The position numbers were made by a program, and so were the translations under genes. Shown here in pieces: positions 58,401 to 61,400 of a DNA stretch of 64,000 nt. The stretch is from Morinoia aosen (lineage: Eukaryota; Arthropoda; Malacostraca; Amphipoda; Talitridae), in contig CM059567.1 in the NCBI GenBank assembly GCA_030386875.1, positions 51,010,020 through 51,074,019 on the forward strand. Reading direction: 5' to 3'. Each line of letters begins with the position of its first letter. Within the stretch, counting starts at the first letter, position 1. The notes below the pieces were generated by a model that did not search any database, was not told the DNA's origin, and saw nothing but the letters and a program-made list of their open reading frames with translations.

Positions 58401-61400
58401 CAACACAATAAAATAGTTATGACAGTAAGAAGTTCTGTCTCCGTTTAGTTTAGATTATTAGTTAGTTTAATCCTCCCTATCCGCAACAAATGCGATCCAA
58501 AGAGAGGAAGGAAGAAGACACCATTTAGTATGGAATTAAGGGAAAGCGGAATCTATGCAGAAAGGGCATAGAAACAGTAAGACGAGAAAGAAGTTCATAA
58601 AACAAGATCAAAGTTGAAGAAGAAAAGTAGGTGCTGAAAAAACAGGACAGCAATAAACCGAAAAAAGATGGACCTTAACAAAATAAAAACCTATTCTATT
58701 TTAACAAAAAGAAAGCCTACCTAACCTTCAGCTCGGGCCCTCACATTGTCCCCCTGGGAGCACTAATTCCCATACCATAGATACAATAGTTGTATCCCCC
58801 TGAGGGAGTTCTGTCTCAATTCTACCAGCATCGGATATCATTTATGATCTTCACTCCCTTCTGAATCACAAAAATACAACAGTATTCGGTACGCTCATAC
58901 CTAATCATTATGCCCAAAAGCTAATTCAGTGCTCATCATTAAGGTATTAAAAATCTTTTCAAAACCGATACAAGTTTCAAATCAATCATTTCACTGTGAT
59001 ATAAAATTATTATAACGTGTAGCATCAACTGTATCACGGTTTTATGTTAGATGGTTTTAATGCATCCATAGGTCCGGTAGCAGCACTAAGTATAACTTCT
59101 CCAAACCGCGCAAAAGAACTAGCTTTCAAACACCAAAGAAAACGCATTCACAGAAGCAAAAGTTTCGTCATTAGATTGAAAATGAAGCATGTCCAGAACG
59201 CTTTAGACCAACTTAAAAACGGAGAGAATTCTATAATAATGTAGTTATCTCACAATCCATTTTCAATAATGTTCCAGTTATGGATTGACGAGAAATATGA
59301 TGTTCACTCAAAATTAAAATTACCAGATACTATATATCTGAGTTAAATTCCTAATAAACAACAAATATACAATAGAATCGAAAAATGAGTTCTTAACCTC
59401 TCGAAAGTCAGACTGGCACTCCTTACCAACATAAAATTCTAGTAAGGACTATAAAAATTCAAACAGACGAAACTTCATGGAAAAGAGCATTGATTGGCGA
59501 AATTGAAAAAAGTTTTAATTTTGGAAGAACTATGAGGAATGTTTTGAGTGAGCTCCCATTACCTGAGGCTCGAATCCCATATCAAACATCCTGTCCGCCT
59601 CGTCAAGCACAAGGAATGTGACGCGGGAGAGGCTGGTTGCCTTCATCTTGACCATATCGATGATGCGACCCGGCGTGGCCACCACCAGCTCCGCCCCCGC
59701 CTCCAGAGCCTTGCTCTGCTCCCACTTGCTTCCGCCTCCGTATGCGCACACAACGTTAATGTTGTACACCTTCCCAAACCTGAACAAGTCATGAAACAGT
59801 CACACTCAAAGCCTTGCTTTGGAACAAAATCACGAACGATCATGTTTCTTAAACATCCAATACCCTAAAAGTCATTTCACAGGAACGTGTGGTTCATTGC
59901 ATGTATAGCAAAAAGAATTCAGAAATTGAAAATTCTCACTTAACACGTTGCTTGTGATACGACCCATTAATGAGTTGTGCGCTAGTTCTTCCTGCTGTGA
60001 AACGACCCCTTGATGGGATGTTTGAAAATTTGTAAAATATTGTAAAGTTAATGGTATTTAATGGACCAAGTTAATGCTTGGTATTTATAATATCGCCAAC
60101 AACTTTTAAATTTAAATTTGAATTTGAATTGAATGTTGAACTATAGTATTACCCATTCCAGTAAATGTGTTAAATGCACTCGCACTGAACATGAGCAGAA
60201 GCTGGAGTCTCACTTTTTAGCCTCGGCATAGATTTGCTGGGCTAGCTCCCTGGTGGGCGCGAGAATGAGGCCAATGGGCCCGTCTCCCGGCGCCAGCTCG
60301 GGCTGGTCCATGATGTGCATCAGCAGTGGCCACAGGAACGCCGCAGTCTTGCCGCTCCCTGTCTTCGCGATGCCTGCAAACACCAATTGCTTACACAGCA
60401 AGGTTCGCTTCAAAATAGATCTGCAAAGCAGGCTTCTTAAATGTCATTCAAAGATGGAAACAAGTTTTGTCAGTAATGAAGATTCTTAGTATTCATACAT
60501 TTTTTAAAGCAATTTCAACTAAAAACAGGCAATCTTTTATAATCCAAAACTTTAGTACTTGAATCAACCAATTAAAACCAACACAAGGTGAGATGTAAAG
60601 GACTTGTAAACAGTATTTGTAATGGATTTTTAAGAAATATATAAAAATACTATATTCGATGTTAAATTCAATCCTCTCAATGCCCACAATTTTTTTTTTA
60701 AAAAAGTTCCACTATTATATGAAAAACCATAATTTAAATACAAGTTCATACGCCATTCTATGTTACTGATAGGAAAACTAGCCAAATTTTTATATTCAAC
60801 CACCCTCCTTACATGGAATGCAAAAGAAACGTCTCTCTGTCGAGGTAACAATCTCCAACTAACCTTTCTGTTTTGCTTTGCAGTGCCAACTAAGAGCATC
60901 ATGGAAAATGCATTTTCAAGATAAAGCCTTGCGTTACAAATTAAATTTTCATACATTTCACACAAATTTTCAGATATAAAAAATACTTTCAAATAGGAAC
61001 TGGAATAACTCAGAAGAGTAACAAAGAGCATGCAGTTCACACCAATGATATCGCGGCCACTGAGCGCGACGGGCACAGCCTGGGCCTGTATGGGAGTGGG
61101 CTGCGTGTACTCGGACTTGCGCACTGACTTCAGCAACGCCTCGTCGAAGCCAAAATGCCCGAAACTGGAGACTGGTTTAGCAGCAGCAAAGCCTGTCACC
61201 TGCCAGCCACACACGGAATTATATCAATGTTTGGTCAGAAAGTTCATTGAAATAAGTTAAATACATAAGCACGAAAGAACTTTACAAGAATGCATACTCA
61301 GAGCACAATAAAACGAATGACGTTGTTTACATTCAAAGAAAATAATAAAATCAAACTAAAAGTACCAGTCTAAGAGAAATTTATTATATTTATTGTAAAC

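Follow-up and report, generated by a model that had tools for sequence, protein, structure and literature searches.

The window, by which we mean the whole 64-kb stretch of DNA analysed here, contains 12 copies of a short repeated element, all of which were matched at E 1.4e-38 or better by a profile made from eight copies; with the same profile, the top match in the reversed window, which served as a control, had an E value of only 1.2. Within the window, the pattern of the element's 5′ end occurs five times with ≤3 mismatches (0.03 expected) and that of its 3′ end eight times (0.00 expected). Because four pairs of copies (approximate starts: A1/A2, 3369/38449; B1/B2, 4387/39466; C1/C2, 5070/40148; D1/D2, 11494/44474) lie within a segmental duplication, the 12 places count as eight independent insertions; a previous sequence-only reading had proposed a repeat family at eight or more loci and does not specify which eight it counted. 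The segments 1–9122 and 35079–44219 are 98.3% identical, and the similarity extends to about 15.9 kb and 49.2 kb, respectively, at 90–95% identity. Overall, the duplication covers 1–15925 and 35079–49155, the left end being 98.3% and the right end about 90% identical. The copies and their target-site duplications are as follows, with K2P distances given to the young consensus of genomic copies described below.

Copy G, 58442–58806, minus strand: full-length, 94.4% identity to the young genomic consensus, K2P 0.059
Copy G target-site duplication on the element's 5′ side, 58807–58817, unstranded: 11 bp, AGTTCTGTCTC on the plus strand
Copy G target-site duplication on the element's 3′ side, 58431–58441, unstranded: 11 bp, exact
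Copy C2, 40146–40492, plus strand: full-length and older, K2P 0.231, segmental duplicate of C1
Copy C2 target-site duplication, left, 40134–40145, unstranded: 12 bp, CATATTAGAGAT
Copy C2 target-site duplication, right, 40493–40504, unstranded: 12 bp, exact
Copy C1, 5069–5414, plus strand: 98.8% identical to its duplicate C2, target-site duplication 11/12
Copy A1, 3368–3684, plus strand: degraded 3′ end
Copy A2, 38448–38764, plus strand: segmental duplicate of A1
Copy B1, 4381–4746, plus strand: extra letters over ~24 aligned columns where D has ~4
Copy B2, 39465–39825, plus strand: segmental duplicate of B1
Copy D1, 11483–11832, plus strand: K2P 0.300
Copy D2, 44465–44813, plus strand: segmental duplicate of D1, K2P 0.301
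Copy E, 22818–23164, plus strand: K2P 0.151, possible duplication of 10 bp (one mismatch), not significant
Copy F, 25272–25450, plus strand: 5′ half only
Copy H, 50672–50959, plus strand: internal deletion, directly upstream of a Penelope-like fragment

On either side of copy G is an exon of a DDX42-like helicase encoded on the minus strand; the copy therefore probably sits in an intron of this gene. The 11-bp and 12-bp duplications at 58431/58807 and 40134/40493, reported as exact in the sequence-only reading, are indeed exact, and the scores of G and C2 were matched by none of 4000 random flank pairs. The score of the C1 duplication was reached by 1.8% of random pairs. This test took in G, C1, C2, E, D1, D2, B1, B2 and H, and the duplications of the last six were not significant (E, 22% of random pairs; D1, D2, B1 and B2, 57% each; H, 94%). 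When the flanks of eight window copies were joined, they matched segmental duplicates and other repeats, and no empty site was found in the window. Subfamily differences are visible among the window copies: A and E lack about 9 nt at one site, and extra letters are present at another site in B and, less markedly, in D.

The host assembly comprises 29 contigs totalling 1.99 Gb; we searched it using the copy at 58431 as the query. The search returned 6667 loose first-look candidates, a number that refers to candidates and not to confirmed copies, of which 40 were scored; the 42 resulting matches comprised 40 near full-length ones, including the query itself, and two short pieces. The 39 non-query matches, distributed over many contigs, start at positions 12–21 and end at positions 371–382 of the 387-nt query. 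These copies were taken with 300-base flanks; as the best matches to a single window copy, they are biased to young members and under-sample the old layers. They do not run on past their common ends, which argues against the longer autonomous element that had been named as a possible refutation. Their consensus is a 357-nt unit, within the proposed length of ~350–365 bp, and its longest open frame is 58 codons. Thus, the repeat is short and non-coding, has defined ends and occurs in many copies scattered over the genome. A literal text search of the literature for strings of the element sequence found no match, which does not prove that it is missing from repeat libraries, and the absence of matches in prokaryote and viral sequence collections carries little weight for an animal repeat. 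At the ends of 10 contigs we recognized no telomere type, some of these ends reading N.

The genomic copies have a near-constant 5′ end and a constant body; common 5′ and 3′ ends had been noticed for the window copies. The 5′ end reads C3-6TCAGGGGG in 28 of the 39 copies and deviates in the remaining 11 by one or a few letters or by a short loss. The 3′ end resembles GGATAGGGAGGCTTAAACTAACTAATAATCTAATCT with zero to four AATCT units, usually two or three; within a fixed interval at the 3′ end, 0, 1, 2, 3 and 4 units are present in 1, 3, 19, 14 and 2 copies, respectively, and hence at least one unit in 38 of the 39. Like SINEs, the element therefore has a 3′ tail of short tandem repeats in variable number. 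The GATACAA/TTGTATC hairpin pointed out previously is present in the consensus. Each of its six aligned pairs is unchanged in five or six of seven independent copies, and there are no compensatory changes, so the hairpin says little either way about RNA structure. The eight-copy consensus has two perfect hairpins, of 7 and 9 bp, which beat most shuffles (11/1000). The 9-bp hairpin, chosen after sight, was equalled in 0/500 shuffles, but by eye it is broken in several copies, and the 7-bp hairpin shows no compensatory change. We also considered a structured 5′ head formed by CCCTCA/TGAGGG pairing, for which three copies show apparent compensatory changes. By eye, other copies break the pair; the 5′ head folds of six of the eight copies are unremarkable relative to shuffles, F (15/200) and H (7/200) folding better, and the consensus fold is not outstanding (94/500 shuffles), and the idea was dropped.

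Retroposition, as had been proposed for the family, is borne out by the flanks of the genomic copies. At the 5′ end and behind the tail, 31 of the 39 copies have a target-site duplication with a score of at least 9, compared with 2 of 384 mismatched pairs made from flanks of different copies. In copies and control pairs alike, the end of the duplication was allowed to precede the 5′ end by at most 3 nt or to follow it by at most 4 nt, and given this tolerance some lengths take in a letter or two of the element. Of the 31 duplications, 23 are exact and 8 have one mismatch; 30 are 10–15 bp long, so that the variable-length target-site duplications characteristic of SINEs are present. The remaining one, in L027, is a 25-bp direct repeat, the longest of all copies, beside which further flank letters are repeated. 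Since L015 and L038 have a common target and represent one event, 30 of 38 independent copies carry a duplication. At 22 of 30 sites the first letter of the duplication is T. The tail repeat would continue with T as well, and therefore the junction is ambiguous by one base; the T may stem from pairing between tail and target.

Nested copies provide the unoccupied target. In L028, inserted into an older copy of the element, the left flank corresponds to consensus positions 1–37 and the right flank to positions 23–193; the overlap of 15 nt has the length of its duplication, which is 15 bp with one mismatch. Nested in the same way are L025 and L040, where the older copy is collinear on both sides, and at L015/L038 the older copy is roughly collinear, part of it being too diverged to match. 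The older host copies thus serve as unoccupied targets and show insertion into intact sequence. The (AATCT)n tail lies between the element body and the duplication, on one side only, and on the basis of this side the RNA-sense strand is the one on which the family was originally read. The ends, duplications and empty sites fit target-primed retroposition.

The 39 copies diverge from their consensus by 2.6–5.8% (0.026–0.058; median, 0.041), and hence some family members inserted recently. The window shows older layers at 15–30%: the K2P distance to the young consensus is 0.059 for G, 0.151 for E and 0.22–0.30 for the others. With window copies at distances from 0.059 to 0.30, activity of the family has probably extended over a long period. 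The exact duplications stand beside copies that are 12–19% off the eight-copy consensus, an apparent contradiction in age, which is gone for G under the young consensus (K2P 0.059) and remains for C2 (0.231). The SINE-like family is real and has young and old layers; it behaves like a SINE, and its interest lies in the promoter gap.

No obvious tRNA, 7SL or 5S head had been recognized in the element, and the RNA-family searches agree. Using cmscan, we found no Rfam match to tRNA, 5S or 7SL in the window, in two window copies or in five of the 39 genomic copies, inside which nothing was matched at E up to 5. Sub-threshold matches in the window were confined to six at 20759–20911, outside the element copies; other such matches were a bacterial sRNA (E 2.4) and a CRISPR repeat (E 4.2) for the window copies and a microRNA (E 2) in the flank of L010. 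At its default, ARAGORN called no tRNA in the window, the eight-copy consensus or the young consensus. At a threshold of 50%, weak tRNA-like folds appeared at 32–118 or 34–120, and 74/100 and 81/100 shuffles also gave calls. The best pair of A and B boxes, scored against a consensus in a sequence scan, reached 10 of 17 in the first 110 nt (equalled in 293/300 shuffles) and 13 over the whole sense strand (91/300 shuffles), and the boxes were no better than shuffles on either strand. These scans detected neither a head derived from tRNA, 7SL or 5S RNA nor an internal pol III promoter, which would make the promoter class unusual, as had been suggested.

The RNA-sense strand is 39% T, and the young consensus contains runs of 5, 5, 4, 6 and 5 T at positions 93, 114, 120, 137 and 161. 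Runs of at least 5 T are kept at 93, 114, 137 and 161 in 36, 33, 38 and 33 of the 39 copies, respectively, when each stretch is widened by 6 columns on either side, a count that does not separate the runs at 114 and 120. The number of T runs is as base composition predicts, and thus there is no sign of selection against them. For the mammalian B2 SINE in human cells, PMC8466645 reports nearly 100% pol III termination at TTTT followed by one further T. The internal T5–T6 runs should accordingly cause premature termination by pol III. Given these strong internal terminators and the lack of any detectable pol III head or boxes, we infer that the element's RNA is probably not an ordinary full-length pol III product. 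More likely, it would be made by pol II, or from a promoter that derives from the 5′ end of a LINE or from an unrecognized small RNA. The element may be a young, abundant SINE-like family whose RNA is no pol III transcript at all but a product of pol II, or stems from a small-RNA class hitherto not known as a founder of retroposons, a reading we hold with slightly more doubt than conviction. Since a strict SINE requires a pol III promoter, which was looked for and not found, strict membership fails on promoter and head, and the term SINE-like marks the limit of the evidence.

The element is probably LINE-dependent, and we looked for a partner. A search of the genome for RVT_1 gave 52382 first-look candidates, of which 150 were scored; among the latter, many frames of about 1229–1248 codons contain no stops (L069–L098), which suggests recent LINE activity in the genome. 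A 3′ tail in common with a resident LINE, named earlier as a point to check, was looked for; the element's 3′ end and tail were common to none of 30 LINE loci and none of 20 further LINE 3′ pieces. Sixteen of these pieces terminate in AACAAGTA-, AACTAAGTA- or AACCCGAAGTA-type repeats, the end being unrecognized in the other four, and none matched the consensus better than E 0.14, apart from a 22-nt stretch. This stretch (21/22) is present in opposite orientation in the 3′ UTR of one LINE family (L099–L104) and at element positions 27–48, and was equalled in 1/200 shuffles; its GCGCTA core may resemble a portion of a CTCF site. A pattern for the last 21 nt of the element, joined to different upstream sequence, was found at 16 places, none recognized as a LINE. 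They were slightly changed element copies, 5′-truncated or interrupted ones and one short fragment with no LINE frame, and they included one copy split by a later insertion at three paralogous loci. At these loci (L122, L125 and L128) the insertion is of ~870 bp and has element positions 328–332 on both sides, like a 5-bp target duplication.

The element is very probably a non-autonomous non-LTR retroposon of about 357 nt. Its sense-strand RNA would be taken up by a resident LINE's reverse transcriptase upon recognition of the 3′ end and the (AATCT)n tail; the LINE would nick the target, often just before a T (22/30 sites) able to pair with the last T of the repeat, and synthesis primed on the tail would leave a short duplication behind. 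Counting against this are the lack of a partner LINE among the LINE 3′ pieces and pattern places, the 11 of 39 copies that deviate in their 5′ letters, the eight of 39 copies with no duplication at the threshold and the window, where only two independent insertions have significant duplications. A DNA transposon of the MITE type or a Helitron would also be a short non-coding unit in many copies, and the hairpin near one end fits such an element. MITE target duplications are of fixed length and Helitrons are not known to make any, whereas the duplications here are variable, mostly 10–15 bp, and occur in 31 of the 39 copies. Terminal inverted repeats, which had been named as a sign of a MITE, are absent from both consensus sequences (score 7, reached in 217/500 shuffles, for the eight-copy one; score 6, reached in 387/500, for the young one), and we give this origin practically no credence. 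We seriously considered the reversed orientation, in which the A-rich strand would be a pol III transcript, as the antisense of the young consensus contains no T4 run. This is predicted by base composition for the eight-copy consensus, and the antisense A and B boxes were at shuffle level; because the genomic tails separate body and duplication at one end only, a requirement of target-primed synthesis, this orientation is ruled out for practical purposes and is highly improbable.

What remains to be weighed is the source of the retroposon's RNA. A pol III SINE of the ordinary kind, with a small-RNA head too diverged to be recognized and with T runs that are read through, would account for the SINE-like size, tail and duplications, and the weak tRNA-like folds called by ARAGORN at 50% would fit it. 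We consider it unlikely, however: most shuffles are called at that threshold as well and the default gives no call, Rfam and the A/B box scans returned nothing above background, runs of at least 5 T are kept at four places in at least 33 of the 39 copies, and loss of the promoter is not expected in a young family. A deletion derivative of a LINE, combining a 5′ head and the 3′ end of a resident LINE and transcribed from an internal pol II promoter, is a possible origin that we regard with some doubt. RIME/SIDER and HAL1 are elements of this kind with an internal pol II promoter. The undetected pol III head, the terminator runs inside the element and the abundance of reverse-transcriptase sequences speak for such an origin, and SINEs can consist of 5′ and 3′ regions of non-autonomous LINEs, according to PMC8010984. 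On the other side, the 3′ end was matched by none of the LINE loci, 3′ pieces and pattern places, in a search centred on LINE 3′ ends, and the best common stretch is the 22-nt one in opposite orientation.

With strict SINEs, headed by tRNA, 7SL or 5S RNA and including PxSE and HaSE of Lepidoptera, the element has in common that it is short and non-coding, with a defined 5′ end, and that the 3′ tail often consists of short tandem repeats and the target-site duplications vary in length, as described in PMC8010984 and PMC3272025. Unlike them, it has no recognizable small-RNA head, its A and B boxes are not above shuffles and strong pol III terminators lie inside its body. SINEs moved by stringent-type LINEs are similar in that a conserved 3′ end is followed by a short repeated unit and not by poly(A), as described in PMC4176376 and PMC3747384; the element differs in that no 3′ stem-loop was established and no partner LINE was found. 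Descent from a LINE as in RIME, SIDER and HAL1 would explain expression by pol II and why no pol III head is seen, but no LINE with a matching 3′ end was found.

An internal pol III promoter is regarded as necessary for SINEs, since it allows every new copy to be transcribed at whatever site it has reached. With young members, thousands of first-look candidates, internal terminators and a promoter that was not found, the element presents a testable exception. Either pol III tolerates T runs in the host animal, or another polymerase is used, or only a few source genes are transcribed. If the RNA does come from pol II or a novel small RNA, the link between SINEs and pol III would be broken in a recently active family. 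The element would also be a useful marker family for the host lineage.

Two other kinds of repeat were observed in the window. A degraded element at 51002–52846, which we take to be Penelope-like, has a weak RVT_1 match (E 0.0035, below the cut-off) with a YIDD motif and is bordered by inverted copies of about 190 bp. Minisatellites with 22-bp and 24-bp units lie at 8324–11237, 43419–44219 and 27384–29075; their units leave several frames open across hundreds of codons, which are unlikely to be genes.
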